DNA from: Polytrichum commune
Taxonomy: Eukaryota; Streptophyta; Polytrichopsida; Polytrichales; Polytrichaceae
DNA length: 64,000 nucleotides
Assembly (NCBI GenBank): GCA_950295325.1
Contig: OX485808.1
Coordinates: 36,476,527-36,540,526, forward strand
Reading direction: 5' to 3'
The position numbers and the translations under genes are program-made. The notes beneath the pieces were generated by a model. That model saw only the letters and a list, made by a program, of their open reading frames with translations, ran no database searches and was not told the origin of the DNA. Below, in pieces: positions 1 through 61,930 of the stretch (positions are counted from its first letter, which is position 1; each line of letters opens with the position of its first letter).

Positions 1-897
1 CCCATCTACAAATGGGGAGATCTGACTGCTGGTTCCAGATGGGCTGCTTCGGGGAGATTTAGGGCACGAACGGTCGAGATGCGAGCGTTTCCAAGCCCAA
101 CCGGGTTGCGTGTAGATGTCTTTGGGTTTTCCTCTCTTCATTCAATTAGGTATAATCTATGGATTCCTGTAAAATGATCAGCCATTTGCCTAAAGTCTTG
201 AACTTGAATCGGTCATATCTCAAACCCAACCGGCCCATCTGTTACTAGCAGCCAGATCTCCCCATTCGTAGGGCTGGTTGAGTTTGAGAAACGACCGGTT
301 CAAATTCAAGAATCTAGGCAAAGTGTCGATCGTTTTAAAGAAATCTACAGGATGCACCTTAAATTAATAATGGAAACCCGAAAGGTATCAACATGTAACC
401 AGTTGGACTCGGAAACACTTGGATCTTGACAACTGATTGTGCCCAAAACCTCCCCGGAAACTGATCTCCATCTCGGGTTTACATAAGAGCTTTAGGTGCA
501 GGAACCATTGTCTTATCAGACATAATTAGGTCACTAACATATTGCACCCCCTACCCACCATAAAGAATTTGAACTTGAGTACCACATTAAGACGCTTTGG
601 TCTGTATTCACCATTAAGGATCAACCTCGCGATGACGGCTCCATTCTATATGAACGACTTTAAATGCTTCTAAAGAACTAATGACTTGCTATTTCACAAA
701 GAGCCATAGCAACATGCTTGGAAAGAAGGAAGGCAATGGGAGGAATCCATTGATCAGAACATTTGTGTTTAGAATAGAAAAAAATTATGTTTTCAAATGT
801 CGATGGTTTTTCAATTCAAAGCATTTTACCTAAAGCAAGGGTCACCATCCAAATCCAAACCTCCCTAGGTATTTAATTTTTCACTTTTAGAAATTTA
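1..897 (+). repeat. Large repeat R, copy R1 (left part)
   Basis: This stretch has no convincing gene. From about base 96 it aligns base for base with 59907-60703, and more loosely with 19111-19830 and 42440-42720. It is therefore a family of dispersed repeats. Copy R1 resumes at 13409 after element A. The first 95 bases are shared with the copy at 19111 but not with the one at 59907, so copies differ in their left borders. I see no terminal repeats that would class the family. Confidence 0.85.
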
Positions 898-907
898 CTT
901 AATTTCC

Positions 908-980
908 GGGGAGTGCTATCTTGTGAGCGGTGAGCAGTGAGCGGTGAGCGATGAGCGGTAATTTGTGAGCGGTGAAGAAA
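908..980 (+). repeat. Left terminal inverted repeat of element A (heptad repeats)
   Basis: It starts with GGGGAGTGCTATCT and then runs as consecutive 7-mers of the form TGAGCRR: CGG, CAG, CGG, CGA and CGG versions in series, then a TAATTTG spacer and another TGAGCGG. The same 7-bp periodicity is seen at the right end and at the left end of element B (53706 onward). Such an array is the expected binding platform for the transposase; that role is inferred. Confidence 0.85.
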
Positions 981-1603
981 ACAAAATATTTGGTAATAGG
1001 ACCCCGAGTATCCTATAACCGTGGTCTAAAGAAATAATTTTTTAGGGTTCAATAATAAGAAGATTGGGGAGGACAAATAATATGAATGCTAGATTGCAAG
1101 TAGTGAGCAATGCAAAAGACCAATATGTACACGACTTGGGGTTGCTAGTATGTGAGCATGCGAGCGTGAACATGTGAGCCTTCAATTTTATCCCGGTTAT
1201 GGTTTGTAAATCCGTTGGGGGCCTATGACTGTGGAATTACATGTAAGGGTCTATAGTCCAAATGAACAACAAATGAGAATGTTGCTATAACAATTTTGTA
1301 CTAAAAATGAACTAATATACATTCAACTGTTGAGATAATAATAATGTAATTGGAGACAATGTGTAAGCAAACTCATGTTGAAAACAAGTGTAGCATGTTA
1401 GAATGTTTCACTATAATACACATCAATGTAAAATTTAAATACATCATAACACCATCATGAGGGTGACATTTACGAAGTCCCAAACATAAAGAACAACAAA
1501 AGTGGATTGTAGATATAAATCGGGTAGTAGATTAAAATTGTTGAAGTTATTGGAAATCAAATTTCAAAAATCAAAAATCAAAAATCAAATCATGAATACA
1601 AAC

Positions 1604-4600
1604 TTAAATATCGTCGGACTCAGATGCACTGAGTTCAAAATAAGCACATACTCTAGTATCGTAATATCTACGAGGTGAAGGTGAAATTGAAGATGAAGTA
1701 GATGAAGCATTAGCATAAGCTTCAGCTAAAGCCTCAGCATACACAGGGAGGCTTTGAGGACTAAGAGAGGGGCTTCTCAATAATCCATGGTGCCGATAAA
1801 ATGACGAGATTTGTATCGGCGATGGATTCATCCAACTAAAAACAACAAACCATGTATTAGAATATGTAACAACAAATTAGAATACAAAATCTAGAATTTG
1901 CAATTGAAGTTGTTGAGAAAAAAACAATGAAAAAACTTACTCACATAAGTTAAGAAGTGCGGCGTCTTCTATTGGAGTATCATCATCAAAGTCCATACCA
2001 TCGCATGAGGTATCATTTGTAGGTGTTTGAAGAGGCTTTAGTACCTCATCAAACAGTTCGGCATCACTTTCTAATGCTAGAATATGACGATTGGATGAAT
2101 GAGCCGCTCTAATAGAAGAACATGGATGAAGCAGAACATTAATTAGGAAAATACGAACATTGAAGTATGAATTAAAAAACATATGAACCAATAATTGGAT
2201 ACTGTAATATACAATACCTGTAGAAGCAGTCATGTCTGCCACAATACCGCCTACAGGACTCAAACCATGAACAAATAACTTCATTAAATCTTCAGACTTC
2301 TCCTTTGCACCCCTCCATGGCTTGCCATCTCTTTGTCTACATAGTTGAGTTTCCATAGTAATAGAGTTGAAGAGAACGTCATATGTGGCTAAATCGACCT
2401 CAGGAATTGAAGGATGCATGGTGATCAGAAGTTCTTGAGGTTGCCTCGCAATGGGAATTGAAAATGATCGAACCAATAACAAAGCCTTGAACTTCAAAGT
2501 CTGAAAGTCAATATAAAATTGAAATTAAAAAATATATAACACATAAAAACAAATTCAAATATGAACCAATCAAAATGAAATGTCATAATTGCTACTTACA
2601 TTTTTGGACGGATTCATAGGATTTGCCAAGTGCAAGGAATTAATGATAGTCCACTCATCCTTGATTTTGAACTTATAGTTCTTGAAGAATCCTGCCACTT
2701 CTCTCTTCACGGCAGAACTGTCAGGATAAAACAAAAGGAATGCTCCATCATCATGAAGATAGGTAAGAGCAAATGCCATCAATATGTTAAGAAAACTTCG
2801 AATGTTGGCATTCCAAGGGGGAATTTGAGATGGCGGATCCGAGACACCTAGAACCCGAAGACCATCTGGGTAATCCGCAATAATGAGGTCCACAGCAGGT
2901 TTCTTTTGCAATTGGCCATAAAAAAAAAATTGTCTACCTTCACCAACCTACAAAGATAAAATATAAATATTACAATACATGAATAAAGACGACAATTAAA
3001 AGTAAAAAATAAAATAACGTGACAAAATATGAATGAAACTTTATAAAACTTGAATAAAGTAAAAATTGTAAAATAAAATGAACTCACCTTTGATAGAAAA
3101 GCCACAATGTCATCATATGGTGCACGAAATGTACCTGTTTGCTTCTTATCCTCGATAATCCTCACACAAGAATCATTCAAGATTAAATCCGAAGATGTTT
3201 GGTTTGCAGGTAAAGGAGGCAAGATATTCATCATACCTCTAAGCTTGGGAGGCATATCCAAGGTAGGAGAAGGGGTTGTTTTCTGCCGCTTTGAAGTATG
3301 AAACGTTGCCTCTAGATTTGAAGAAGAAGGTTCAGTAACTACAAGGTTGTTGAGACTGCTTTGAATTGGAGCATCCTCATCGCTATCATGAATGAGGAGG
3401 ATTGGTCTTTTAGGCTTAGACTTTTTTTTTTGGCATCTTGGCTGCATCCTCATCCATTATAGAGGGAACAATTTTAGTTGTACCCTTGAGGGCGGGTTGA
3501 ATGGAATCTCGAAGGGCAATATCAAAAGTGGGAGGTGATTTAAGAGGACAATCCAAATACCACCCACATTTTTCAAAATGCACAAGATCCCAAGATTTCA
3601 TGATCCCCTCTGTGAACATGCATTCTTCACTTTCGATATCCAAATAATTAGCCAAAAAAATGGGAGATTTGGAAATGGCTTTCGCAGGAAATAAGACATA
3701 TTTGAAGTACCTATAAAACACCCTTCGCATGGCCGGATAAAAATTGAGTTGCTTGTCAATGTTATGATTTTTGTGAACTCCCTTATCCACACCAAATTCA
3801 CGAAAAAATGCAGTATCCCACAATGATATGCGCATTGCCTCCACATAATAAAAAATAGTGGGCAAAGGATCCATACCATCTGGAAGGTACTTGATGGACA
3901 CATGCATATCAGCCACAGTAGCATCAAAGAGCTTCTCGGTCTCAATAGCCAACTGCCAAATACAAAATAAAGATTAGAAGAATTAAAGCATTGAAAAAAT
4001 ATTACAAATAAATTAAAAACACAGACCAAAAATAAATGAACCAAACATAATAGAAGCACAAAAATTATCACCTGAGCCCACCAAGTAGCTTTATGAAGCC
4101 ACTTAGGAAACTCTATATCATTGAATTTTGGTTTCGGAAACTTGAGAGCCTCACGAAGAGCAGGTGAACTGTTCCACCTCTCAAGCCACTTAATCTTCAT
4201 AGATGTGACCATTGCCGAAGTTGCTAACATCTAAAGTTTTTCTTGAGTCATCTCAGGGTTCTCATCGTGAGTTTCATAATGAGACTTCACATGCTCTAAG
4301 AACATAGGAGAATGTTTAGGATCCGCAATGGGAAGTTGTTTCTTCAATTCCGAATGGAAGTCAATCTCACCCTCTCAACAGCTTTGGAAACAAATTCATC
4401 CACTGCACTCGAAGTCCAATGTGCAGGATCAGAATATTTCTTATAAAATTTCCTTTGAGCAGTAGCAGCAGCATCTCCCAACTCTTGCTACACCAAGGAA
4501 AAAATATATAAGAATATGAATAATCACACACAACAAAAATAAGATGCAATAAAAAATATAGTTATAGAAATCCAAATAAAAACAAAACAAGAAAAATATA

Positions 4601-5542
4601 CAATAAAACAAAAATCGTAAAAAAACTAATACTTCAGAAAAAAATAACCTGGTATAGAAATCCATTAAGAGCCTCAACAGTCAAAGTAAACCAAGTCCTA
4701 TGTTTGGATTTTTGTTTGGCATCAGCGGCAGTAAGATCTTCTTTGGAAACAAGTTTTTCAAAATATGAAAGTGGTTGCCCAGCAATGCTTTGAATGCGGA
4801 AAAGCTTATGAACAAGATTGGTACAAACATGGGATTTTTGGTTCCTCCTGTCAAAACAAAACAACCAATGATAAGCCAAAGAAAAGAGATATACAATAAA
4901 AAAAAACAAAAAAAAACAAAAAAAAACAAAAAAAAACCAAATGAACCGAACAAATAAAAAGAGAAGAATGAAGTAATTACCAATTGACTTCATGTAAAGC
5001 TGCCAACATGGTTGCAATATCTCCCTTGACGTCTAAAATAATACTTTCAACAGCATAATGCCAAACCGGATCATGTGTGTGATCTCGATTAATAATGGGC
5101 AACCATGCTTGCAAACGGTGATTTCCGTCCCACACCATGAACATTTTGCCAGAGAAAACTTTGAGGTCCTCATCAGCTTGCAATATTTTTTCAAAGGCAT
5201 CATTAGCCCGCACCCAATTCTCACTCCAAGATTCAATGATACTATCGGTAACATGTACTGTTTTTCCCTCATTGTTTTCCAAGGCCACATAAAAAACCCC
5301 ATTGCCCTCCATATAACCACAAGCAACAAAATGTGCAGCCAGGTTCATAACGTCACTTTTTTAAAAAGGCCTTACAACAGGCAATGCAATCATTCGACAT
5401 AGTGAAATGTTGAATTTTGATTTTGCCCTTGGTTGATACCTCAACCGTTCAAGACGGGAAGATGTGTTGACAGTTTCTTTCTTAAAAAATGCATGTAATT
5501 GCATCTCCAATTGATCTTCAGAAAGAGGTACAACTTCCAAAT
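1604..5542 (-). pseudogene. ParB-like / DNA methyltransferase-like protein gene of element A (decayed)
   Basis: Exons chain through GT..AG borders on the minus strand: about 5542-4981, 4847-4650, 4489-4072, 3952-3090, 2947-2600, 2501-2218, 2113-1944 and 1841-1604. The first holds a ParB-like motif, VWDGNHRLQAW (about 5112-5135), preceded by an IALPVVRPF segment, the place of the PIRP region in ParB domains. Near the C-terminus come DLIIADYPDG (about 2850-2885), aligned with the DPPY motif IV, then GIVADMTASTG (about 2220) and ILALESDAELFDEVL, resembling motif I and the following acidic strand. Motif IV before motif I is the order of beta-class N4/N6 methyltransferases. The PPY part is not conserved, so activity is doubtful. 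A Ser-rich acidic tail ends the protein. Lesions: in-frame stops at about 5361 and 4231, a frameshift near 4371, and another in an A10 run at 3422-3431. Element B has a diverged homologue. Family calls are by eye. Confidence 0.6.
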
Positions 5543-5718
5543 CTAAAACACAAAACATATCACCCATTTGAAAAACAAAAACAAATCAAAAGAAATATAT
5601 ACATAGGAAATAAATCACATATGCAAACTAAAACAAAATGAAAAAAATTAAGGAAAGTGAGAATATACATAAGAGAGAAAACCACATATTCCCAAAAAGT
5701 CTGAATTTTGAATAAGGG

Positions 5719-7026
5719 TGGCCGTTAACGGCCACTCTTCTTGGAGGAAAAAAAATGAAGGAAATGAATGCATACACACATGCATGCATACATGTAGAAA
5801 CAAAATTTCAAATATAAATAAGGGTGGCCGTTAACGGCCACTCTTGTTGAAGGGAAAAAAAATGAGAGAAATGGGTGTATACATTTAGAAATAAACCCTT
5901 ATGAACAAAAATCCGAAATGTGAATAAGAGTGGCCGTTAACGGCCACCCTTATTGAAGGACTGAAAATGAGAAAAATGGGTGTATACATGTAGAAAGAAA
6001 CCCTTATGAACAAAAATCCGAAATGTGAATAAGAGTGGCCGTTAACGGCCACCCTTATTGAAGGACTGAAAATGAGAGAAATGGGTGTATACATGTAGAA
6101 AGAAACTCTTATGAACAAAAATCGGAAATGTGAATAAGGGTGGCCGTTAACGGCCACCCTTATTGAAGGAAAAAAAAATGAAAGAAATGGGTGTATACAT
6201 GTAGAAAGAAACCCTTATGAACAAGAATCGGAAATGTGAATAAGTGTGGCCGTTAACGGCCACCCTTATTGAAGGACTGAAAATGAGAGAAATGGGTGTA
6301 TCCATGTAGACAAAAACACTTATGAAAAAAAATCTGAAATATGAATAAGGGCCACCCTTGTTGAAGGGAAAAAAAATGAGAGAAATGGGTGTATACATGT
6401 AGAAACAAACCCTTATGAACAAAAATCCGAAATGTGAATAAGAGTGGCCGTTAACGGCCACCCTTATTGAAGGACTGAAAATGAGAGAAATGGGTGTATA
6501 CATGTACAAAGAAACCCTTATGAACAAAAATCCGAAATGTGAATAAGGGTGGCCGTTAACGGCCACCCTTATTGAAGGGAAAAAAAATGAGAGAAATGGG
6601 TGTATACATGTAGAAACAAACCCTTATGAACAAAAATCCGAAATGTGAATAAGGGTGGCCGTTTAACAACCACCCTTGTTGAAGGAAAGAAAAATGAGAG
6701 AAATGGGTGTATACATGTAGACAAAAACACTTATGAAAAAAATTCTGAAATGTGAATAAGGGTGGCCGTTAACGGCCACCCTTGTTGGACAAAAAAAAAA
6801 CGAAGCAAATGAGTGGATACATGAAGAAAAAAACACATATGGAGAAGAGTCTGAAATTTCAAGGACAAAAAATTGAAGGAAATGTGTGTATATTTGAAGA
6901 AAGAAACACATATACTCAGAAATATAAGATGCAACAAAGGGTGGCCGTTAACGGCCACACTTTTAGATGAAACAGACTACAATACAGAATTGGGCATCAT
7001 AGAAAGGGTGGCCGTTAACGGCTACC
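5719..7026. repeat. Phased array of 13 palindromes (GTGGCCGTTAACGGCCAC) in a 105-bp tandem repeat
   Basis: Perfect 18-bp palindromes start at 5719, 5824, 5930, 6035, 6140, 6246, 6444, 6549, 6762 and 6941. Degenerate sites lie at about 6350 (half-site), 6655 and 7009. At several sites the symmetry extends to 22 bp. Spacings are 105-107 bp for the regular part, equal to ten turns of B-DNA, so the sites face the same side of the helix. The intervening unit (ATGAGAGAAATGGGTGTATA and following) is also repeated, but less strictly than the palindrome. The array lies between the two divergent genes of element A, in what looks like an intron or leader of the minus-strand gene. Candidate roles are a protein-binding array for the element's own ParB-like or transposase protein, a promoter/enhancer, or a methylation target; all are inference. 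Confidence 0.9.
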
Positions 7027-7197
7027 CATTTGGAAGAGAAACACACTTTCATTTGAGTTGCTTTCCGGAGTTGCATCTTCTTTGTCGCTCTTGCTCGTTT
7101 TGTCTATGCGCCCACGTCGCCGCCTAGAACTTGTACCAGCATCTGCATCCTCCATGATGCGCGCTCTTGCTTCTTGCGTATGTTGTTGCCGCCGCAC
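7015..7197 (-). other. Possible 5' exon of the ParB/methyltransferase-like gene
   Basis: A minus-strand open segment encodes a basic/acidic low-complexity peptide (MEDADAGTSSRRRRGRID, then KSDKEDATPESNSNES). It ends next to the last palindrome of the array, where a GGTAGC could serve as a donor. Composition matches a disordered N-terminus or nuclear localisation region. Linkage to the downstream exons is a guess from strand and position. Confidence 0.3.
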
Positions 7198-7488
7198 TTC
7201 GAAAGAGGATGTCTGAAGACATTAGGAAGAGTATGGCTTCAAGAGATTAGGGTAAGTCGGACTCTAAAAATAAAAATAAAAAAACAAGTAAAAATTTGGT
7301 AGATTTCAGTCTATGGAATCTTTGCTATATACCGTTGGAATCGTATTTTCGGTGTGTACAATATGGTATACATTATATACCTCTAAATTTATTTTCATTT
7401 TAAATTTCTTCTCTTATCATTTCTTTCGTACAACTTACCTCCAACTCCGCCTCAGAAGATTGTTCTTCTTTTTCGTATTGTGTGGCTG

Positions 7489-7803
7489 CTATTCGTCGAT
7501 GCCTTTATCATAATCTTCCTCCTCTTCATCTTCTTCATTGCATTCAGAGACGATATGTGGTTGAGCTTCACATGTAGAAATTTGGTGTTCGAAGACATCT
7601 TCCGTTATCATTTCGCATGCCACAATATCTTCGTACGTCAAATTTCTTGTTGTACCTGATAGGTCCACTCCTTTCATTCGAGGAATACGTCTATTCATTC
7701 TAGCCCTTGACAATTGTCTCTTACTTGAAAAACGAAAGCTATTTTTTCGCCTATTTTTTTTCCTACCCTTCACTGGAGTAACCACTGCTAACATGAATAA
7801 ATG
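7489..7803 (-). other. Possible exon: basic then acidic low-complexity segment
   Basis: Minus-strand reading from a plausible acceptor (TTAGCAG, about 7805) gives AVVTPVKGRKKNRRKNSF, a middle part with SGTTRNLTYEDIVACEM, and an acidic tail ECNEEDEEEEDYDKG that stops at 7489. The stop means it is either a separate small gene or an end exon. I recognise no domain. It belongs to element A by position. Confidence 0.3.
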
Positions 7804-8145
7804 ACGTTCTTTTACATTTAAACGCATTCAGCTACCCTCTGCACTACATTGTTACTGTCAACAACATGTATTTCATGAATGTTAATCATGATTCGGCCAT
7901 TAAATTTATGAACTCCAAACAAAAGCCACGGTCTCAACATAGATAGGGAGGCTTCGTGAAGGTGATGGACTTGCTAGAAATTTTGGTTCTTCAAAAAAAA
8001 ATCGCCAACGTCACATAACTAGCACATGACAACATAGATGTGTTAATACCCATCATAATCCAACTAAATAAACAAGCAACATCTTGTTAAGGAATACATA
8101 GCAAAATAATTTCAAATCACACAATTTCAGAAGCTGACTTACCTT

Positions 8146-8298
8146 TTTGTTTGTTCTGTTTTGTGAACTCGTCTTCATTTCCGACTCCGAAATACCATCG
8201 TCTGCATGGTCTTTGTTCTTTGCACCTTTATCGTCCTCTGACTTCTTATGCCTTCTCTTCCGCCTTACTAGTGTTCTCTCTACATGTTCCACCATCAT
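8146..8298 (-). other. Possible first exon of a minus-strand element A gene
   Basis: A minus-strand ATG at 8298 opens MMVEHVERTLVRRKRRHKKS, then a Lys/Asp-rich stretch, and reaches a strong donor (AAAAAG then GTAAGT, about 8146). A short charged exon with a good donor, facing away from the transposase start at 8935, suits the 5' end of the minus-strand gene. No similarity is recognised. Confidence 0.35.
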
Positions 8299-8934
8299 TG
8301 CTGTCTATGATATATCTTCTACCACTCCATTTTCATACATTTGTTTAGTGTTTAGAGCTCACTTAAACTTGGCGCACATTACGATCATCAGTGTTGCAAT
8401 TGGCGTCCAATGATCAAGTTGTTTTAACGCGTCTTTCACTCTGCTTCTATTTTTATTATATCCGCCAAATTTCTCTGATATCCCAACCTACCACATTGAC
8501 TTTGTTCTATTTATAATGGCCAATCATTTACTTTGCCGGCCAATTTTAATTGTTCCTGCATCTACATCCAGCCTACACAGTCGTATTTTAAAACTTTGCC
8601 AACTTGTTTATTATTTGACGCCGTTTTCTCCATGATATCCGTGCCCGCATTTCTTCCATGTGATAATCTTATATTACACAACTCCATTGTGGGTTCAAGT
8701 TTCCTATGGCTTAGTTTCTAAAGGAGATATTTTTTAGGATCTGGTTTAGGATTCTATGTTTTCCTTGCAAATATTCTCTGTCTACTATTATGATCTGTCT
8801 CCTTTTGTGTTATTGGATGCTATGGTATCACCTCTTTTAATTTACATCCATTATTATATTCTCCATCATTCAATACAAAAGCGATGTTGATATAAGATTA
8901 TTGTCATGTGTTGTTCATCTATTCCTTCTTCTCC
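8299..8934. promoter_or_regulatory. Intergenic gap between the two outward-facing genes of element A
   Basis: About 640 bp of AT-rich DNA separate the last minus-strand exon candidate from the transposase start. Both genes would be initiated here or nearby, so a shared bidirectional promoter is expected. I see no single convincing TATA box and claim none. Confidence 0.35.
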
Positions 8935-11900
8935 ATGGCTACCATTAGAGCTCACGGATCTTTTGTTCCCTTCATTTTGCCACTTTAAGATGATGGTCAT
9001 GTCAATGTCTCAGAGGATTTTCCTAGTCTGAGATTCAACCTCCAGATAGAAACCATGTATTTAGAGCAGGAGATGTATTCTGCAGATGGAGAGGTGTATG
9101 AAACGGTTTTGGTTCAAAAAAACAGAACCGAGGTTGGTTTTATGTGGATCTTAGGACCTGGTTCATTTAGGGTAATAGGTCTTTCTGAATCTCAGATGCA
9201 AGCTTCAACTATCATCTTGACAAACGAATCCGGTACATCCACCGTTCAAATTCCCTATGTCGCACCTGTTAAGGTGGAACCCCTTGATGATAGTGTGTTT
9301 GTGCTATCAGATTCGGAAGATGACGTTTCTGCATCTGTTGATCTTTCAAACACATCGCCGTTTCCATTTTAAAATCTTCATTCCACTTCTTCACAGCTTC
9401 CTATACATGTAGCCAAATCTCCATGCGGTCCTATGTATAAGAGTTTGGTTCCCCAGCTCTCACCTTCTCATCGTCCTCCACTACACCCTTCACCTTCATC
9501 TATAGGGTTGACTATCGTTGATGCTTTGAAGCTTACAAAGTCTAGAAGAAAATCAAAGTCAGATCTCACATCCATTGATTTTGATAGTATAGATGTTCAT
9601 GATGTCAAGTACTTATCATCTTCTTTTAATGGTGATGTTTTGTTTCTCTAACCCCCTGTGGCACTCAAAGCTCTAAGTACGTATGGCCGCTCAATGGACG
9701 GCATGGACAAGATGTGCGAAGGTCACCCTTGGTGCACCACCAAAACCACCAATATCCAAATGATTTTGGATTGTCCTTCCGGCGCTCTACTTGTGCTGGT
9801 CATCTCCAATGTCCTAATGACTACTGTGATTACATGAATCGCAATGGAGGCCTCCGGAACAACACTGAATGGGCCGGTTCAACTCCTCTCCCATTTGCTG
9901 TGGGTAATGTTCCTCCTACTAGGTCCACTGTCGAGTGTAAGGTATGTCGTTCCACACCTGTGTGCATTGCTTTATGTCATGCTCGAATCCTATACATCCA
10001 CTCCACATCTGTTGGAATGTCCAGGGCTTGCATTTATATTGGTATACATTATCACCCTGTGGCCAATGGCACATGCCGTGAATCATTGGACATGGCATAC
10101 CAGTGCATTGCAAATGAAGTATTGAAAACACCCACAGCCAAAAATTCAGCCATAGTTATGGCAGCAAGCAAACAATTCTTGGCCGATTACCTTCTCAAAT
10201 CTCCCGCAAATGTCGAAGGCCATCACTTGGTTGGTTCATCCCTAGAGGTCGTCATGGACAAATTCAGCACTCTTGCATCTCCGAATTGTCGTAACTTTGT
10301 ATCTGGATCAAAGCGTTTTTTGCGTAATGGAATGGGAACTATGGATAGTATTATGGCATTCAACGACCACTCTGCTTTCAAGTTCGTCCATGGTAGTCGG
10401 TTTCCAGGACAGTCAAAGGACAAAGTGTTTGTTTTTAAGATGTTTGTAGACCTTCCAGGTAGTGGTGTGGAGCTTGTGAAGAGGATGCAAGTCGGTGGGG
10501 ACATGGAGAATTCATGGATTATGTTTGACCATGTCAAACGTTTGAAGGACTGGACGACCATAGCTTGTCATGTGTACGACAGTCGATACTGTAAAGTGTT
10601 GACTATTGCGTGTTGTGACATGCAATCTGAAGATGGTGCAGCACAAATTCTCTTTTGGGAAAATTTGAATGCTGTCATGGCAAAAAATGGTGTACCAAAC
10701 GTAAACTTCAAAGGGTTTATGGCTGATAGTGCTCAAGCTAATTGGAATGCAGTGAGGGCGATTTACGGGGATGGTGATCCAAGTCTACCCATGGTTGCAC
10801 GTGAGCGTACATGTCTTTTCCATTGGTCTGCAAGCTTGGATATGGTGACCCAAAAGTATATCAAACCATCCTTGCAGTTTCAACACAAACAAATATGCAA
10901 GGATTACAAAGACGCGAAAACAATGGACGACGCTGAGACTAAGTACCATGTGATTTGTTCTTGGTGGTTGTCATCTGGAGCTACCTCGGAAGAAGGCATC
11001 CTTGGCCTTTCAGAGTGGTTGGGTTTTTGGCACTTTCGTTATAGACAATGGGGTGGTCATATGCTACTTGTAAGTACATATCAAACTTCATTATTCACTG
11101 TCATTCAATATTTGGCCACTGATATATAATATATCTTATGTTTTTCTTATCTTTGTATTTGTGTGTTGTTCATAGGATATGACAATAGAAGAGCGTGCGG
11201 AAATGCCAACATGCAACCTTGCTGAGACTGTACACAACAAATGGCTCCAACAGTCCGGCAACAAGATGATTTGTTTATATGAAGCTACAGTGGACGACAT
11301 GATTCGTGCCTTCATGCAAATTGCAAATTACCGGACATGGTTGAAAGGGGGGTCTGATGGTAAAGGTCTTGATTCGGCATCCTTGAAACTCAAAGCGGCT
11401 GCCAGGTGTGGAGATCCAAAAACGTTGGCCGATGCCATGAAGTCTTATCTAGGGGCAGAAGACGTCAACACTAGAGATTGTGCATTGGAAGGGTCAGAGC
11501 TCTTTGGTTCCACGAAACGCAAACTCAACCTACCACCGGGTGCTGATTGTGATTCTCATCGACCCGACAAAGTGAACTATTCCATTCCTCGTCCCAACAC
11601 CCGAGCAACTCGTCAACGCATAGAGGAATCGTTGAGTTCTGCAATTCATGGTGTGGCTCATACTACATCCGTGTTAGAGACTGATTGTCTTGCTTCTAAG
11701 TGGCACATTGCAAGATTGCCACCCAACTCAGCCAAACGTTGTTGGGCACTGCAGGCCATTACAGGGACTATGTGCAATGCCAAAGTCGGGACTGGGAAAC
11801 ATGGCACACCTGCTCCAACATACAAAGGGCTCAGGAAGGAATTTCGTTCTCCCAACAATGTGGAGTATGAATTTTGGTTTTGTCCTGACGACATCAAACG

Positions 11901-12542
11901 TTGTATGAGTGGCAGTAAGAAGAAATATGTGTTGGATTGGCCTATAGTACCCAACACGTGGCCAGTGAAGATAGGTACCAATCTATCGAAAGAGGAGGTT
12001 TTGGCACTTGAAGATGTTGGATTTCAACTACAGCAGAGGGAGGCATTGTCTCCTCGTCGTAGGCTTTCAACAATCGCAACTCTTCCCATCCCTTGCTCGC
12101 ATATTCTATGCCACCAAACCCAGACGCCCACCCTACATTCAGATTTGGGAAGACAGTGCGTCGTAATCCAACAGCACCTCTGGCAGATCACAAAAACAAA
12201 TGGGAGAGCGCCGGACTCATGGAAGGTTACTATGTGGTTGGGGTCACTGCCATTCCATATCCGGGCTTTGGAGTGATAATCAACATTGTCTCCAAGCAGG
12301 ATATCACCTACCATGTCACAATTGGCGATATCCCGCATTGCACATGTCCAGATTTCACGAAAATATCCTCTCATACATTGGGAAAGAAAGGAAAATGGGT
12401 GTATTGTAAACATCTTTATTATGTGTTTAGATTTTTGTGCAAGGTGGATTACGAGAGTGACAAGTTCATTCATGCACCTATATATACCTATAATGAGGTC
12501 ATGCGACTACTTGAACTTGCTGGTATTGTAGAATGTGAGTAG
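8935..12542 (+). pseudogene. MULE transposase with WRKY/GCM-like zinc cluster, DDE core and SWIM finger (decayed)
   Basis: One gene can be followed from ATGGCT at 8935 to the stop at 12540. The N-terminal part has in-frame stops at 8986, 9370 and 9649 and a frameshift near 9765. Then comes a Cys/His cluster (RSTCAGHLQCPNDYCDY ... CKVC ... IHYHPVANGTCRES) typical of plant MULE DNA-binding regions. The catalytic part includes IACCDMQSEDG, FMADSAQANWNAVRAIYG and ERTCLFHWSASL, matching the D, D and CxxH signatures of the MULE family. A GTAAGT...ATAG intron (11070-11175) is in phase. Near 12063-12092 the frame shifts again, and the C-terminus carries the SWIM finger CTCPDF...KWVYCKHLYY. It would cut and paste element A by acting on the heptad TIRs. 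Start choice rests on frame continuity and the CCATGG context. With this many lesions the copy is dead. Confidence 0.85.
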
Positions 12543-13190
12543 TATTGCAAGTGTTCTATTAAGTAACATATATTTGAATGTCAATAAATGACATGTTTTG
12601 GTTTGGATTATTATAATAAAAATTAGCAGTGGACTGAAAGTATTTCAAATGATTCAGTAACTTCATTTTTATTTAGACTGCGACCCAACCATGTGTGGTT
12701 TGATTGATTCACACGGATAAATAATAACACGTTTCTAAAAATAAAAAACAATTAAGAAGATTCTACGCACATCCGCGTAGTAACGTCTTCTTGGTATCCG
12801 CCTATAGATTATTCCTACTTTATCACTAGCTCAATTTGGGATAGCACCAGTCAATGTAACCAACCGGATTCGAACCCGGGTTGATCCAGACCTAATACCA
12901 GTCTCTTACACAACTCACATCCACAGGCGGATGTCTCAAAACCTAGTAGCTACCTACATATTCACTATTTCTAATATCTAATTTTCTTCCTTTTGTAGAT
13001 TTTGGGCCTTTATTCAACCCGTGAGCAGTTTGAGTGGCTCACAATTATGGCACCGACATATATGTAGAATGTGAGTAGTTGTACAAGTGCTAGTTGTAGC
13101 TACATGTATAAGGATGTCAATAAATGACATGTATTGGTTTGAATTATTATAATAAAAATCAGCAATGGATTGAAAGTGTTCTAAATGATC
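12528..13190. repeat. Duplicated 3' end of the transposase gene flanking a SINE-like insert
   Basis: About 120 bp after the transposase stop (12528-12650, with GTAGAATGTGAGTAGT and TGTCAATAAATGACATG) recur at 13064-13190. Between them lies about 410 bp of unrelated sequence with a tRNA-like head (separate entry). The pattern looks like a local tandem duplication, with material lodged between the copies. TCAATAAATGACA may act in polyadenylation. Confidence 0.6.
12720..12960 (-). mobile_element. Probable tRNA-derived SINE (or tRNA relic)
   Basis: On the minus strand GGTTCGAATCC (about 12867-12877) is a perfect pol III B box. About 45 bases upstream, AGTTGTGTAAGAGACTGGT resembles an A box, as in tRNA-derived plant SINEs. 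No cloverleaf acceptor stem pairs, so it is not a functional tRNA. The 3' body runs towards lower coordinates and its end is not defined. Confidence 0.45.
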
Positions 13191-13318
13191 TATGGAAATA
13201 GGGCCCTTTCACTTGTGCTTCATTTAAAATATTGGCAATTTTCAATTGAAAATATGCAATTAATTTGTCAAAAATTTGGTTGTAAACCCTAAACCCGTGT
13301 GTCTTTACTAAATTTGGA

Positions 13319-13408
13319 TTCATTGCTTATATGTTACTGCTCATTGCTCATGTGTTACTGCTCACCACTCACCGCTCACTGCTCATCGCTCATAAGATAG
13401 CTTCTCTC
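13319..13408 (-). repeat. Right terminal inverted repeat of element A (heptad repeats)
   Basis: Read on the minus strand it begins GAGAGAAGCTATCT and continues in 7-bp steps (TGAGCGA, TGAGCAG, TGAGCGG, TGAGTGG, TGAGCAG, then TAACACA-type spacers alternating with TGAGCAA and TGAGCAG). It mirrors the left end and abuts the right target-site duplicate at 13409. Confidence 0.85.
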
Positions 13409-13693
13409 CTTAATTTCCTAGGATTTGTAGACAAACTTCTAATGAAAATACTGAATAAATATATCAAGTACTCAGGAGATAAATGGTACATTTTGACCTT
13501 CACTAGAATTCAAATTGCACTGACCTATTTCCATGATTTCCCTCAGCTAGCTTCAAATCATAGGTGATCCTACAACAATAATGTGAATTGGGCATCCAGG
13601 ATACATCCAAATAAATTGGCAACCCAAAATTGAATGTTACAACATCCAACAAGGTTGCTCACTAGAGGTCCTCCATTTGAACAATCCTGATCA

Positions 13694-14282: not shown

Positions 14283-14841
14283 CCTGATCACTTTGGAGCA
14301 ATTCCTTGAACATTCTTCGCTCATTTCCAACCCCTCTAAATAATCATGTTACTATGGACCATGGTGATCTTCTCATATTCAAAATCAATGAGGACCACAT
14401 TGATTATTTTTCTAGGAAATTGATGTGGGTGGATATTTTCAGTTTATGCTAGGTTTGACATTTGGTGTAAGGTGACTCTTTGATTTCATATAAGGTGTTG
14501 ATCGGAAGTCGCAAGGAAGACTAAGTGGAAGTTATTTGTTATTTCCACCCCACTAATTATGTCCACGCCAATTTTCCACCCCCACTAATCGGACTGTTTA
14601 GAGCAGTGAGCAAGTGAGAGCGAATGCATTACCTACCTTAGAACTGATGACAGACCATTCGCTAGTGGCAGCACTGCGAATCATGGGACAACATCTGGCG
14701 ATTCACCAAGCCCAGGCTTGCGACAATTAATCCATCCTAAGCAATTTTGAGCGTTCAAAACAAACATCGGAGCACCATAATCCAACTTAGTGAGCAGCTG
14801 AGAGTGAAAGCACAATTGGTGAAGTAAGCATAATTATTGAT

Positions 14842-15089
14842 CGTTTGCCAGTGATGGCATTGCTCTCATGGGAGGCCAGAATGCCCTTGCTTCGCTGCGA
14901 GATGGAGGAGGCCGTCCGTCTCAGCTCCTCCGTGTATGGATTGGTGCTCTCGAACTCCGGCGGCATCACAATCTGCTGTGGAGATGGGCAGGAGCCCCGC
15001 TGAATTGTAGTGGCCTTGCGGGAGCAGTGCAGCCATGAATCCCCCAGGAACATGCTCCGTTCCAGGCCAGCGGATGCCGCCATCACCAT
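14842..15089 (-). pseudogene. Fructose-bisphosphate aldolase first-exon fragment in R1
   Basis: The minus-strand reading from ATG at 15089 gives about 82 residues ending NPYTEELRRTASSI...SKGILASHESNAITGKR. This matches the N-terminal region of class I fructose-bisphosphate aldolase, (A)SDELxxTAxxIxxxGKGILAxDESxxTxGKR, preceded by a transit-peptide-like Ser/Arg-rich leader (MAASAGLERSMFLGDSW). Only this exon is present. The base pair after it reads AT instead of the donor GT kept in R3, and ILASDES has become ILASHES. It is a gene fragment carried in repeat R, with no downstream exons and no catalytic lysine. Confidence 0.7.
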
Positions 15090-16511
15090 TGTGCTTTTCA
15101 CTTGAGGATTGAGTGTTTCCATAGGTGTTTGTGAAGAATTCTTCCTTTCCTTTCCTTTCCTTTCCGATCCGATCCGATCCGAAGAAGCATGGATCGTCGT
15201 GCGAGGAGAGGAGATGGGGAGTTCGGGACAGCAAAGCAGTGGCGGAGCGAGGCTGCCACACTGCCAATCTTGTGAGAGGCGCCTGCTGCCTGTTTCTTTA
15301 TCTACTAACCCACCTTTCTTCTCTTCTCTTCCTCCTTCCTCCCTCCCTTCCTGCCTGCCTGCCACCAGTGTTCAAGATTGAAGCCCTCATATGAGTTTCA
15401 TTTTGAAGGGTTCTCAAATTTCAGCCCTTCAATTGAAGAGTTGGTTCAAATTTAAGATGTCAAATTAAGAATATAGAAAGGAAATACAAAACTCATATTA
15501 AACTTGTGCGGGAATTATATGGTACATGTTTGCAGTACAATGTGAAAAATTAAGAACCAATCATCTAACTCCACTTCTTGTAGTGATAATGCCCTACGCT
15601 TGTTGGTTCTTGTGGTGGGCAAATTATATTGAGGACTTCAAGTGACGTTTTCATTTTCAATTTGGGGTCGTGTCCTGAAGGGTTGTTTTGAGAGAGGTAT
15701 ATTTTGAAAATGCCAAATCGCATTTGAAGGGCATTGAAGACTTCAATCTTGAACATTGCCTGCCACCCACATCCACACCCAATTGCCTCCTCCATTTCTA
15801 CAAAAAGATTTGTTGGCCCTGTCTCATGTCATGGGATAGAGGCGTTGTGGTAGAGATTGCCTTTGTGCAGTAATAGGGTCTAGGCAATGCATGTCATAAC
15901 TTAATGAATAAGGTTCGGTGAAGTTCAATGAAATTTCCATTGTAATATGTCATATAGGTTATCTTATAAACATTGATTGTTCAAAACATTCAAACTGTGA
16001 TTTTATGATGGAGCCTCTCGTGGCAAAACCACATTCCCTTGTTCATACCATGCCCACACTAGGACAGGCGACTGGCCCGCACCACTGGGAGAGTTTCCAT
16101 CTTGATAAGAGTTCTTGTCTTGTATGCACCGGTGAAACTACAGTACGTTGCATCTAGTGAGGTTATTGTGAGTACGAGGAGGAATCCTTACTGGTAACAA
16201 TAAATTTCAAAAAGAGATGCACTTTCCATATCAAGAGGGACTCCTCGTACTACCTAAGAGCAATGGGTAGCCTTAGGGTGGGCATGGTATAAGTGTGTGA
16301 TTTATTGAGATTAGAGTCATCCTTACAATCTCTCAAAAACTAATAGAAACGTTACTAATAAAAAACATTCTCACAAAAAAAATTACTTATATCGATGACG
16401 TTTTGTAGTATTATGTTGGCAATTAGCGGACATGACATTTTGAGACCTCTAGGCATTTGGTTTAGGCCTTCACAGATAATGTACGTGACACTAAATTGAT
16501 ATCATAAGTGG

Positions 16512-34280: not shown

Positions 34281-36569
34281 TCAAGACAAATCATCATATA
34301 CTGAAGTGGAAGTGCTAGCTGTAGGACCCGTGGCTGCACCAGACAGATAAGTAGTTGGGTTAGCATAAAGAAACTTGTATTTTGTTTCATTCTTCCACAT
34401 GGGTATGGCATCCATCAAAATAGCATCATACTCCTCTTCAGGCCCTTCTAAAGCAACTCTGAGTAAAGCTTCCAAGTTTTTGCTTCCCAATCTATTCCTT
34501 ACCCGTGTTTTAATCAAATTTTGAATGCTAAAGGCTCTCTCACATGTAGCAGTGGAAACGCATTGCACTCTAGCAATTTCAGCAAGAATAAGTAGATTTG
34601 GGTACCTTATTTGTAAAGCATGATTCCAAGTAATCATACCCCACAAATCTCGAAAGGTCTTGTCCCCCCATTCGGTTGTGCATTGCAATTTGAAGGACAA
34701 AAACTCCCTCTTACAAGCCTGGACATCTAGAAGAGGAGGGAAAGAAAAACCTGCATGACTACGATCAGTTCCATAAAGCTCAAGCAATTTTTCCAACTCA
34801 ATAATCTCCCAACTGTGCAATCCAACTTGCTTTGATGGCATGTTAGAGGGATTTAGTATCTTGAAGCAGGAAATCAAGTCATTGTCAGTAAATCTAGCTT
34901 GCAAACCATCACAAACAGCCTCAACAAATGACCGTTGGAATTGTAGAGCTTCTTCTAAGTCTACTCCCAACCTAGAGCGTTGAATCTCAAAACCATGATA
35001 CATGTTACCTCGAATCTCTGATGGCAATTTCCTAAGCAATCCACCAAAAGAGCCATACTCAGGAAGCACATGGTAGCCTGATTCTTCGTTGAATGTTTGT
35101 GCATTCAAATCTGTAGTTTCCACAATGAACAACATACGAATTTGGGCTATCTCGGAACGGACAATACTACCAACAGTGGTCACATCCACAAATTTGCACT
35201 GAAATACCTTTGACAACATAGCCAAGCAATGCAAGATGTCAGCAAGGAAATACAATATGTAGATGAATTTGAACTGCCCTAACATTTATAAGATTGGAGT
35301 GGTTGTATCTGCATCGCGGCCCTTGCAATCATGAAAGAATGCTAACACAGACTCTAAAGACTCACATAGGGTTGTTACAGCTTGCCATAGACTCAACCAT
35401 CTAATTTTGTGGTAACGCGTCATTGATTTCTTAACATCAAAGAACTCCTCTTGAAGTTTAGAAAGACCATGCTTGCGCTTGCTAGACTTGTTGAAAAACC
35501 CAGCAATTGAATTCAAGAGAGAATCAACTTGGGAAGATATTACCTTGCAATCAGGAGACTTGGCTGCGTCCAAGGCCGCCAAATTCGTTCGATGAGCAAC
35601 GCAGTGACATGCTAAAAGGTAAGGATTTACCTTCTCCTTGATTTGGGCAGCCACTTCCCTTGAATTGCCCATCATGGTGCTGGCACCGTCACTCCCAAAT
35701 CCGACAAATTTGTTCAAATCCAACCCCCACTTTCGGATGCTAGAAATCAAGGTCTCATAAATCATTGTTGAGTCCTTCTTGCCTTCTTCAATCTGCAACA
35801 AGCCAAGAAACAAAGTAACCAGCAAACCCTCCTCAATGATGGTGGCAAACACGACAAGGTGTCCTGTGACACTAATGTCGGTTGACTCATCTATCATCAC
35901 ACCGTAGAACGCTGAATTCTTCACACGGGCAAGGACTCGCTTCTGTATCACAACTGAAATGCACATCATCAAATCAACGCAAGATTTTTCATCTTGGTAC
36001 ATTGACAAGGTCATGGGGGCTTTCACAGTGACTAACAAGTTGCACAAAGCAGGGAATTTGGAATAGGGTAAAGATTGCTTCCCAAAAAAATATGCGGCCC
36101 GGAAGAGTGAAGCTACTGCTTCATCACATGCCTTCTGCCCTTGCAAGATTGCCTTCTCCATAACCTTCTCACCACTTTGTAATGCCCAAGCTAGTCGCCT
36201 GTGCTCTCCAGATCGAGCATGGTCATGGAAAGAGCTAACCTTCAAGTTCTTGGCACCATCTTTGGCATATGCTGATCTCCCACCTTTTTCCCTGCACACC
36301 TTACAAAAAACCTTCCCAACTTTTGCACAAAAATATATCCAAGGAAACTGAATTCCCCATTGCTCTTTCCAATGTGAAGCAACAATTTCGATCTCTGAAG
36401 GCGGATTGCAAGGAACTAATGAATCCCCAGTTTCAGGAGATGAGTTTTCAGAGCCTGAAGACAAAATTTCGATACACTCAACTTCCCTTGATTTAGCAAA
36501 GTAATGGTCCCTCAAGGACTTCTGCCTTTTAGCCATGAAGCCTGAGCGATGGAGTATGTATGGCTGCAA
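34281..36569 (-). pseudogene. hAT-superfamily transposase (one in-frame stop)
   Basis: The reading frame of about 761 codons runs from 36569 (more likely start MAKRQKSLRDHYF at about 36536) to 34281, broken only by a TAA at 35286-35288. Residues 60-125 form a TTF/BED-like finger (FCKVC ... SFHDHARSGEH). Catalytic blocks are GVMIDESTDI (first D), VGFGSDGAST (second D) followed by LACHCVAHRTN, and near the C-terminus the dimerisation region with QCVSTATCERAFS (glutamate). All three acidic positions survive, so the single stop is probably recent. The set resembles the ZNF862/ZMYM-like branch of hAT. Termini and an 8-bp duplication were not found, so the element's limits are unknown. Confidence 0.85.
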
Positions 36570-48708: not shown

Positions 48709-48775
48709 GTGGCATTGAATTTGTGGATGCGACGTGACTCTAATTCTTACCCCTTTTTTGTTTTATATGCAGGAT

Positions 48776-53488: not shown

Positions 53489-53705
53489 TTATGATAGAAT
53501 TACAGGTTTGGATATGGCTAACTTTAGGCTCTTGCATATCAAAAATTGTGAAAATTTGGATTATTTTTACAAAACAATGAAGAATGCAAGTAAATTGAGG
53601 TGGATGCGGATGCGCATGAGGTTTAGCCGATATAGAGGAGAAAAAATCAAAGAGTTGCGACCATCGTTTTTCGTTCCATTCAAACTATTGCGTGTGTTCT
53701 CCGGT
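53489..53705 (+). pseudogene. Duplicated exon 3 start of the NBS-LRR gene, cut by element B
   Basis: From TGTAATTATGAT (about 53486) the sequence repeats 52031-52260 (LGMANIRLLH / LDMANFRLLH, NLDYFYKTMKNASKLRWMR, PSFFVPFKLLRV). It is out of frame with the LRR array before it, which ends at the junction stop. At about 53700 it breaks off at the terminus of element B. The rest of the duplicate is not in the window. Confidence 0.8.
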
Positions 53706-61562: not shown

Positions 61563-61810
61563 CGTTTGCCAGTGATGGCATTGCTCTCATCGGAGGCCAG
61601 AATGCCCTTGCTTTGCTGCGAGATGGAGGAGGCCGTCCGTCTCAGCTCCTCCGTGTATGGATTGGTGCTCTCGAACTCTGGCGGCATCACAATCTGCTGT
61701 GGAGATGGGCAGGAGCCCCGCTGAATTGTAGTGGCCTTGCGGGAGCAGTGCAGCCATGAATCCCCCAGGAACATGCTCCGTTCCAGGCCACCGGATGCGG
61801 CCATCACCAT
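61563..61810 (-). pseudogene. Fructose-bisphosphate aldolase first-exon fragment in R3
   Basis: ATG at 61810 gives a plastid-leader-like start (MAASGGLERSMFLGDSW), then MPPEFESTNPYTEELRRTAS, SISQQSKGILASDES and NAITGKR, matching the N-terminus of class I aldolase. The exon ends at a GTCAGT donor, lost in R1. Within the next 1.5 kb on this strand I find no further aldolase exon, so it is a captured or stranded exon, better preserved here than in R1. Confidence 0.7.
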
Positions 61811-61854
61811 TGTGCGTTTCACTTGAGGATTGAGTGTTTCCGTACGTGTTTGTG

Positions 61855-61930
61855 AAGAATTCTTCCTTTCCTTTCCTACGTGTTTGTGAAGAATTCTTCC
61901 TTTCCTTTCCTTTCCTTTCCTTTCCTTGGC
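61855..61930 (+). repeat. TTTCC microsatellite with local duplication
   Basis: Runs of TTTCC follow GTGTTTGTGAAGAATTC twice here, against once in R1 (15125-15165). They lie just upstream of the aldolase exon on its strand and would be its leader. Confidence 0.85.

Follow-up and report, generated by a model that had tools for sequence, protein, structure and literature searches.

In Polytrichum commune, a 12.5-kb transposon (element A) carries a transposase gene and, divergent from it, a multi-exon second gene (gene 2). Across the genome gene 2 and a tandem array of palindromes lying upstream of its coding body are linked, on the sites listed below, and in two comparisons gene 2 and array vary together, apart from the transposase, like one cassette. 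The reading that we prefer, at somewhat less than even confidence and by analogy with Arabidopsis elements, is that of a two-gene MULE-like family in which the gene-2 protein would recognise its own element's array as VANC does, although built from unrelated parts.

Element A lies in a stretch of 64,000 nucleotides (the window; contig OX485808.1, positions 36,476,527 to 36,540,526, forward strand), which also contains a kinase-NBS-LRR gene. The earlier note on this DNA had reported a MULE-type transposon with a ParB-like plus methyltransferase-like gene. That observation holds and reaches wider than reported; the palindrome array, of which the note makes no mention, is an addition to it.

Layout of element A

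Element A is flanked on both sides by the 9-bp target duplication TTAATTTCC (Table 1). The ends of a second element (L126+L128) agree with its ends, and the target duplication there is 9-10 bp; at L017+L127 the left end was not found within the stretch of DNA examined. The transposase of L017 is a 741-aa open frame. Searched against Pfam with E values up to 10 allowed, the transposase matches SWIM weakly (E 0.016) and none of the transposase families. The MULE type is supported by the ends, the 9-bp target duplication and the layout, and not by a Pfam transposase model; because no Pfam MULE-type DDE transposase was recognised, the element is called MULE-like and not a MULE member.

Gene 2 had been placed at 5542-1604 on the minus strand, and its exon borders there fit GT..AG. 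Two open frames further upstream are candidate 5' exons: over part of the first, DNA at 8134-8238 shows 83% identity with the L126 element, and a frame that by eye resembles the second is found at L007 7370-7753. The gene probably starts upstream of 5542, and the palindrome array probably sits in one of its introns. The window copy is broken, with stops and a frame break in gene 2 and a broken transposase frame as well.

Table 1. Features of element A in the window (positions of the window; left blank where nothing applies)
Feature	Position	Strand	Remarks
Left target-site duplication TTAATTTCC	899..907		border +/- one base
Transposon (element A), MULE-like	908..13409		12.5 kb, both ends present; inverted repeats and target duplication
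Left terminal inverted repeat, best-matching 47 nt	915..961		42/47 identical to right end
Gene 2, last exon	1604..1835	-	with stop codon
Gene 2 exon, SAM-binding half continued	1937..2108	-	RAAHSSNRHILALESD; 3' border +/- few bases
Gene 2 exon, motif X/I region	2218..2500	-	WRGAKEK ... ADMTASTG
Gene 2 exon, degenerate methyltransferase motif IV	2600..2947	-	DLIIADYP at 2867-2890
Gene 2 exon, middle region and linker	3088..3952	-	
Gene 2 exon, middle region	4072..4487	-	stop and frame break in window copy
Gene 2 exon, middle region	4649..4847	-	
Gene 2, ParB-like exon	4981..5542	-	one in-frame stop in window copy
VWDGNHRLQAW box of gene 2	5103..5135	-	
Tandem array, 12 palindromic units, core GGGTGGCCGTTAACGGCCACCC	5696..7036		units mostly 105-107 nt apart; upstream of ParB exon
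Gene 2, candidate further 5' exon	7489..7827	-	basic, then acidic; open frame, putative
Gene 2, candidate first coding exon	8140..8304	-	basic; open frame, putative
Transposase gene, divergent from gene 2	8935..12542	+	frame broken in window copy; by-eye DDE-like pattern and CxxHW
Right terminal inverted repeat, best-matching 47 nt	13355..13401		
Right target-site duplication TTAATTTCC	13410..13418		

A divergent gene-2 piece lies within 16 kb of 109 of the 131 scored transposases; at 8 a piece is arranged in some other way (at 5 of them next to a divergent one as well), and 19 have no gene-2 piece, divergent or otherwise. A count that placed a piece within 25 kb of 23 of the 131 had suggested that most transposases lack gene 2; this was wrong, as a more distant gene-2 type adjoins them.

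The two halves of gene 2

The ParB-like motif that the earlier note had pointed out, a PVVRP segment followed by the VWDGNHRLQAW box, is present. Proteins of the ParB/Srx superfamily have a G-x-x-R box after a strand and, some 35-47 residues further on, another conserved box with N; among 18 copies of the ParB exon, G112, H114, R115 and N159 are invariant, N113 and A118 are nearly so, and the box spacing is 47. The ParB assignment is one of motifs, and profile searches do not confirm it: no ParB match was obtained from Pfam (0 of 12 ParB-exon members), NCBIfam (0 matches for the exon) or PDB profiles (no ParB chain). The ParB-like PHROG_1033 is matched weakly, by 6 of 10 members at E 0.046-0.51 and only over the GNHR box. 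Comparison by hhalign with 50 phage ParB domains, columns with half or more gaps having been removed, gave probabilities of 1.8-4.3%, and 4-6 of 200 column shuffles scored as high. The single-sequence AlphaFold2 model of the window exon has a mean pLDDT of 35, too low to use for a fold search, and of the 5 phage records that tblastn gave for one ParB exon (E 0.03 at best) not one carries a ParB annotation. The N-terminal part of gene 2 is probably, though not with certainty, ParB-superfamily-like.

Other candidate relatives of the ParB exon were set aside as weak: katanin p60 (E 0.023, over one short stretch), MSL3_chromo-like (E 0.0089, one member only) and phrog_9020, of unknown function (E 0.01, one member only). 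Matches to PF02195/PF01555 on three small contigs (C10, C12, C23) look like prokaryote or phage contamination and were not counted among the moss genes.

The C-terminal half is shown by profile to have a permuted beta-class DNA methyltransferase fold. The motif IV-like DLIIADYP block precedes the motif-X/I-like block, which ends in GGIVADMTASTG near 2216; this is the beta-class order first read by eye. A profile built from 8 genomic copies, with exons joined by hand, finds DpnA (1.2e-6, profile positions 180-240) and CcrM (2.3e-5, profile positions 18-236) in the PDB. Pfam N6_N4_Mtase is matched by 7 of the 8 members (best 2e-9) and, above its cut-off, by the 577-aa open frame of one copy (1.5e-8); the window's own piece scores 4.5e-4, under the cut-off, and the window's motif-IV and motif-I exons, searched alone, do not match it. 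Profile searches had been proposed as the check on this assignment, and the Pfam and PDB matches bear it out; neither half of gene 2 is confidently placed in an unrelated fold by such searches. Phage DNA-MTase PHROGs match as many as 6 of the 8 members (1.7e-12 for the strongest match), tblastn of one methyltransferase copy against phages gave 446 records (E up to 0.1), and a Pfam PF01555 scan of the genome found two nuclear places above cut-off. When prokaryotic or viral relatives of the ParB exon and the methyltransferase were sought by pattern, 24, 95 and 26 candidate stretches came up, 0 of them confirmed. The VANC family is absent from the Pfam scans of gene-2 parts, in which no other family matched significantly; the middle and 5' exons have no significant Pfam match, and several hundred residues separate the two halves.

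The first residue of motif IV is D in 4, E in 3 and Q in 1 of the 8 members, followed by Y/I/F-P; DPPY is absent from all 8, the catalytic form (D/N/S)PP(Y/F/W) is not found in them, and one further copy has DIPYG. Because the first residue varies in this way without DPPY, the residue that would contact the target amine is not conserved, and because the catalytic motif is degenerate, the fold is more likely to be a SAM/DNA-binding module than a normal methylase. An active enzyme, which would add methyl groups to adenine (or to cytosine at N4) within or close to the palindromes and so mark element DNA for different treatment by host machinery or transposase, is not our choice but an unlikely alternative with points in its favour: the CcrM profile match spans motif IV and motif I, the SAM-binding block D-x-[TK]-[AC]-[GS]-T-G is kept in 8/8 members, and GTTAAC, a possible adenine target, lies within some palindromes. 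The D/E/Q-x-P form of motif IV speaks against it.

Copies, selection and palindromes

The exon set of gene 2 is not due to chance, because the same exons recur across the host genome. The ParB piece gave 150 scored matches of 1143 candidates and the methyltransferase piece 150 of 1097, with a scored methyltransferase piece downstream, within 15 kb and on the same strand, in 65 of the 150 ParB places; in all, there are 294 scored places of the ParB-like exon. Subfamilies range down to about 40% identity with exon order unchanged. The dN/dS ratio of the ParB exon is 0.12, 0.14 and 0.18 in three of the five pairs for which it is defined, showing purifying selection in these three; it is 0.47 and 0.74 in two young pairs and undefined in four further ones, and the methyltransferase exons of the window and L010 give 0.67 and 1.48. 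Three ParB pieces are identical as protein over 164 aa, and two elements are 98.9-99.4% alike as DNA over long stretches. The genomic-copy alignments A1/A4 leave out L003, L007, L010, L018, L116, L119, L120, L122 and L123 (stops, breaks or N), and also L125 and L126.

Palindromes and gene 2 are linked on the sites listed. Genome-wide the pattern GGGTGN{1,2}CGTTNNCGN{1,2}CACCC is matched 809 times on the forward and 153 times on the reverse strand (962 together, a palindromic site counting on both), against 3 + 2 = 5 for the reversed control. The 61 distinct sites listed come from C1 and from part of C2 and form about 30 clusters; 58 of them have a scored ParB or MTase piece within 10 kb, in every case with the site on the upstream side of the piece, a zone that takes in no more than 0.7% of C1+C2. 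Repeated palindromic cores are found by a strict test in the 5' region of 10 of 17 loci, which were chosen to span identities and not at random and include several close relatives (L003, half N, was excluded), as compared with 0 of 9-15 control windows per locus. No repeated palindrome was found at 5 of the 17 (L009, L011, L012, L015, L016); L015 and L004, which has one, have ParB pieces that are 94% identical. A CGTTAACG core is common to the window and L017 arrays, so that a gene-2 type does not have its palindromes wholly to itself.

The comparisons that bear on a cassette are few, between pairs that we selected. The window and L126 elements align as DNA at 908-1086 (80%), 8134-8627 (73-83%) and 8755-13408 (90-93%); at 1087-8133, where the body of gene 2 and the array lie, they do not align. 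The transposases of window and L017 are 84-91% identical, their ParB pieces only 41%, and their palindromes differ; in L006 and L007 the transposases are 50% and the ParB pieces 87% identical, with a shared palindrome core and different unit lengths.

How gene 2 may act, and systems it resembles

On the preferred reading, self-recognition in the manner of VANC, gene 1 would supply the transposase, and the gene-2 protein, composed of ParB-like N-terminal part, middle region and methyltransferase fold, would bind its own element's palindromes and might, like ParB-type proteins, spread outward from there. So bound, it would keep the element open to transcription or transposition against host silencing, as VANC does for VANDAL MULEs. 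The model is directly testable because one genome holds hundreds of copies with differing palindromes, some of them young-looking. The palindromes could instead serve the transposase or transcription. A parABS-like form of self-recognition, in which a ParB-type/methyltransferase-fold protein would load on element-specific arrays and spread, or mark copies, against silencing, gene and array being traded as a specificity cassette, we hold to be doubtful.

It is likewise improbable that gene 2 encodes an accessory factor of transposition, a DNA-binding helper for which the palindromes would be internal sites for building the transposition complex. DNA-binding helpers of this kind are mudrB of MuDR and TnpA of En/Spm, and the divergent pairing with transposase at 109/131 places and the conservation of gene 2 across subfamilies are in favour of such a role; but the window array is mid-element, 4.8 kb from one end and 6.4 kb from the other, and gene 2 and array differ between elements with like transposase and like ends. 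The notion that host factors act on the palindromes as on a promoter, an insulator, a small-RNA source or some other regulatory or hairpin-RNA feature, with an unrelated role for gene 2, draws on their location between two divergent genes or in a 5' intron of gene 2 and on the description of tandem repeats as possible RdDM targets (PMC10398659); it is distinctly unlikely, for inside one host differences in palindrome accompany differences in gene 2 rather than in the transposase. A captured passenger gene without function (Pack-MULE type), which the broken window copy and the ratios of the young pairs (0.47-1.48) might suggest, is hardly credible in the face of 294 scored places, the same exon order down to about 40% identity and dN/dS of 0.12-0.18 in three pairs.

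ParB/methylase fusions are, as the earlier note had it, known from phage and bacteria (surveyed in PMC12704722, whose main text contains 'plant' and 'transpos' 0 times). As described there, these ParB/N6_N4-methyltransferase fusions likewise have the ParB-like box first and the permuted beta-class methyltransferase second, and are borne on mobile elements; gene 2 differs in its introns, its place in a eukaryotic DNA transposon, its long inter-half stretch, a ParB part undetected by the HMMs tried, a degenerate motif IV and the palindrome array. Literature searches among open-licence papers listed no MULE that carries a ParB or beta-class methylase gene. The main text of a MULE survey (PMC6446971), in which mudrB of MuDR and other second ORFs likewise stand beside the transposase, has 'methyltransferase' and 'moss' 0 times, with no array mentioned in the available passages, and the available text of a 6mA survey (PMC12695648) has 'moss', 'bryophyt' and 'ParB' 0 times.

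N4CMT of bdelloid rotifers, a host gene with a chromodomain fusion that deposits 4mC and is stated in the available text to have no eukaryotic homologs (PMC8885841), shares with gene 2 the permuted beta-class PF01555 fold in a eukaryote, introns and a link to transposons and tandem repeats, whereas gene 2 is the transposon's own and has a degenerate motif IV. Retrotransposons of Symbiodinium and Klebsormidium have acquired DNA methyltransferases, and DIRS elements a Dam-like one (PMC5890265, in part); these too are eukaryotic transposable elements with a DNA methyltransferase gene of their own, but of C5 or Dam-like type, in contrast to a DNA transposon with a beta-class fold, a ParB-like part and palindromes.

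A parallel in action may be the VANC system of the VANDAL/Hiun MULEs of Arabidopsis, which have an extra gene whose targets are tandem short-motif repeats in non-coding parts, differing between related elements, expanding and contracting (PMC5735166, PMC10398659, as far as their available text goes). An element-encoded gene with tandem motif arrays that differ between related elements is present here too; gene 2, with a methyltransferase fold and a ParB-like box, and with long palindromes as motifs, may work like VANC and is not filed as VANC. If the preferred reading is true, the elements would provide a natural repertoire of protein/palindrome pairs with which to target specific sequences, and an instance, on a eukaryotic transposon, of the ParB/methylase pairing that phages are known to have, and plant MULE-like elements would twice or more have evolved a self-encoded reader of an element-specific repeat array, from unrelated proteins.

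Element A, its transposase and the condition of gene 2

Element A of the window spans 908-13409, delimited by a 47-nt inverted repeat (42 positions identical) and a 9-bp duplication, TTAATTTCC; a second element on contig C1 (loci L126 and L128) has ends of the same kind with a 9-10 bp duplication, and no left end of the L017+L127 element was found in the stretch examined. The transposase is encoded on the plus strand, in a frame that is broken in the window copy and open over 741 aa at L017, and gene 2 diverges from it on the minus strand. The description of the element as a MULE-type transposon in the earlier note is upheld by its ends, duplication and layout but not by Pfam, which fails to recognize the transposase; "MULE-like" therefore refers to those three features. 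In the assembly (407.8 Mb, 64 contigs, seven of them large), 109 of 131 scored transposase matches have a divergent gene 2 piece within 16 kb (median 5.2 kb), eight have one in any other arrangement (five of them in addition to a divergent piece) and 19 lack a piece of either kind; leaving out the PF01555 pieces changes these counts to 98, 5 and 31.

The layout that had been claimed for gene 2, a PVVRP segment, VWDGNHRLQAW, a motif-IV-like and then a motif-X/I-like block, was recovered in that order. The window copy of element A is not intact: the ParB-like exon contains one in-frame stop, and exon 4487-4072 a stop and a frame break. Less damaged relatives exist, for example L017, whose 164-aa ParB piece is free of stops and has 100% protein matches at two further places. 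Two genome searches scored at least 294 distinct places with the ParB-like exon; each gave its best 150 matches, so that the true number is probably higher. A single 577-aa open frame runs through both the middle region and the methyltransferase in L026-L028 (contigs C4, C1 and C5), so that the two belong to one protein; the basis for assigning the ParB-like exon to the same predicted protein is its order, spacing and splice sites. At L018 (C1:42556801-42565800) and similar places, ParB pieces are ~80-90% identical; one TGA is common to most of them, and no methyltransferase piece was scored within 15 kb. These copies probably form a non-autonomous branch that nevertheless spread.

Features of the window and palindromes of gene 2 loci
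Feature	Position or sequence	Strand	Remark
Gene 2 exons	5542-4981, 4847-4649, 4487-4072, 3952-3088	minus	GT..AG borders
Gene 2 exons, continued	2947-2600, 2500-2218, 2108 to about 1937, 1835-1604	minus	GT..AG borders
L005-L007 palindrome	GGGTGCCGTTGCCGGCACCC		upstream of ParB-like exon
L008 palindrome	GGGTGTCGTTTACGGCACCC		94-nt units
L004 palindrome	GGGTGCCTGAGGCACCC		128-nt units
L013 palindrome	CTCTCGGAGCCGAGAG		
L017/L126 palindromes	GTGCGTTAACGCAC and TGGGTCGACCGACCCA		
L014 palindrome	CAGAATTCTG		six
Protein kinase/NB-ARC/LRR gene	48719-53577	plus	many near-identical leucine-rich repeats; by eye, open frames
hAT-type transposase-like frames	34284-36569	minus	two, adjoining; by eye
Aldolase-like N-terminal pieces	14790-15371 and 61511-62062	minus	similar, truncated, ~46 kb apart; by eye

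Elsewhere in the window, inverted repeats related to each other occupy 16.5-17.1 and 63.3-63.9 kb, one stretch near each aldolase-like piece; repeats and pieces together are perhaps a duplicated segment. Fusions of protein kinase, NB-ARC and LRR are typical of bryophytes.

The two halves of gene 2

The motif-IV and motif-I exons of the window, taken alone, find no methyltransferase in Pfam. A profile of eight gene 2 copies (A3), with the following exon added and the exons joined by hand, matches DpnA in the PDB over its C-terminal block (E 1.2e-6 and 1.4e-6) and CcrM over nearly its full length (E 2.3e-5), with DLIIADYP beneath the motif-IV region. Pfam N6_N4_Mtase matches seven of the eight members (best 2e-9) and, above cut-off, the open frame of L026 (1.5e-8); the window's own piece stays below cut-off (4.5e-4). 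Phage methyltransferase PHROGs match up to six of the eight (best 1.7e-12), and tblastn with one copy, L008, retrieves 446 phage records. At the level of sequence comparison, these matches establish the methyltransferase fold and its permuted order, the beta-class order previously assigned by eye. DPPY is present at motif IV in none of the eight members (D in four, E in three and Q in one, then Y, I or F, then P; one further copy has DIPYG), which makes enzymatic activity doubtful despite retention of the SAM-binding block in all eight; this half of the protein is probably impaired.

The ParB-like exon is well conserved. A strand with R-P, a helix, G and a strand precede the box [KL]-M-F-x-V-x-[DE]-G-x-H-R-x-x-A-W, whose G, H and R are invariant in 18 of 18 aligned copies, and after it come another strand and, at the close, a helix whose N is invariant, an order known from ParB-type domains. 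Profile searches do not bear this out: Pfam ParB matches none of 12 members, NCBIfam yields no match, no ParB chain appears in the PDB search and a genome scan with PF02195 finds nothing at gene 2 loci. The commonest match, PHROG_1033 (ParB-like partition protein; six of ten members), covers only the box, at E 0.046-0.51. Matches just as weak, to katanin p60 (E 0.023) and, in single members, to MSL3_chromo-like (0.0089) and phrog_9020 (0.01), speak against the label. It is mainly the box that hhalign aligns with 50 phage ParB domains, and column shuffles score as high in 6 of 200 trials for the whole exon and 4 of 200 for its C-terminal part. Single-sequence fold prediction was unusable. Of the reading in the earlier note, the methyltransferase thus stands, and the ParB-like label, favored by motif order and conserved box, is kept as probable and unproven.

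Small contigs of the same assembly (C10, C12 and C23; L019-L025) carry genes for ParB and ParB-methyltransferase of prokaryote or phage type, the one on C10 with an apparent intein (by eye); these contigs are probably microbe or phage contamination.

The palindrome array and the cassette

Upstream of the ParB-like exon, the window has 12 units around GGGTGGCCGTTAACGGCCACCC, mostly 105-107 nt apart, and diverged gene 2 copies have arrays in the same place with different spacers. A strict test (arms of at least 7, loop of at most 4, the same core three times) is passed by 10 of 17 loci and by none of the equal-length controls taken elsewhere in the window (9-15 per locus). L008 and L014 pass looser tests only; L009, L011, L012, L015 and L016 fail, yet L015 and L004 agree at 94% in their ParB pieces. 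Genome-wide, the pattern GGGTGN{1,2}CGTTNNCGN{1,2}CACCC occurs 809 times forward and 153 times in reverse, and its mirror pattern 3 and 2 times, palindromic sites counting on both strands. Of 61 distinct sites listed, 58 lie within 10 kb of a scored gene 2 piece, all upstream of it, in a zone that makes up at most 0.7% of the chromosomes concerned; since the pattern was derived from arrays already known beside gene 2, this is a test of location rather than a blind discovery. The other three (C2:30655141, C2:30655351 and C1:14263387) have no scored gene 2 piece within 20 kb, and are possibly non-autonomous elements retaining only the array.

Between the window and L126 elements, DNA aligns at 80% over the left end (908-1086), 73-83% over 8134-8627, which includes a candidate first exon of gene 2, and 90-93% from 8755 to the right end, and not at all over 1087-8133, the gene 2 body and array. 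Transposases of the window and L017 are 84-91% alike and their ParB pieces 41%, and the palindromes differ; conversely, for L006 and L007 the figures are 50% for the transposases and 87% for the ParB pieces, and the palindrome core is identical, with unit lengths of 340 and 373 nt. Palindrome arms are similar between the window and L007, where transposases match at 34-45% and ParB pieces at 55%, and differ between L013 and L007 (57% and 37%). In these few, chosen pairs, gene 2 and its array act as a cassette, and in the clearest comparisons palindrome type tracks gene 2, not the transposase. The types are not fully separate, since the core CGTTAACG is common to the window and L017 arrays. L017 and L126 differ in array length and are ~99% alike elsewhere.

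Selection, a possible function and known systems

Among nine pairs, dN/dS of the ParB-like exon is 0.12 (L005-L006), 0.14 (L006-L124) and 0.18 (L014-L016), which is purifying selection. Two young pairs give 0.47 and 0.74, and in the other four, with silent sites saturated, the ratio is undefined. For the methyltransferase exons, 3 of 10 comparisons are defined: 0.14 for the window-L003 motif-I exon (dS 2.0), and 0.67 and 1.48 for window-L010, with few changes. The pattern fits a gene kept working in the long term while many young copies decay.

Documented here are the architecture, the family size, the palindrome link, the cassette behavior of the pairs compared and purifying selection in three pairs. 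In the reading we favor, the gene 2 protein would bind its own palindromes, and such binding might, a step further on, relieve host silencing. We found no published report of a ParB-like and methyltransferase gene combined with palindromes in a MULE, and it is the added palindrome cassette that makes the case interesting. Retroelements carrying other DNA methyltransferases are known (PMC5890265), and bdelloid rotifers have a permuted N6_N4 enzyme as a host gene, described, in the passages cited, as having no eukaryotic homologs (PMC8885841). In protein architecture, the nearest known counterpart is the phage ParB/N6_N4 fusion (PMC12704722). In behavior, it is VANC of the VANDAL elements, whose targets often come as tandem repeats and differ from one related element to the next (PMC5735166; PMC10398659); the gene 2 protein is not classed as a VANC.
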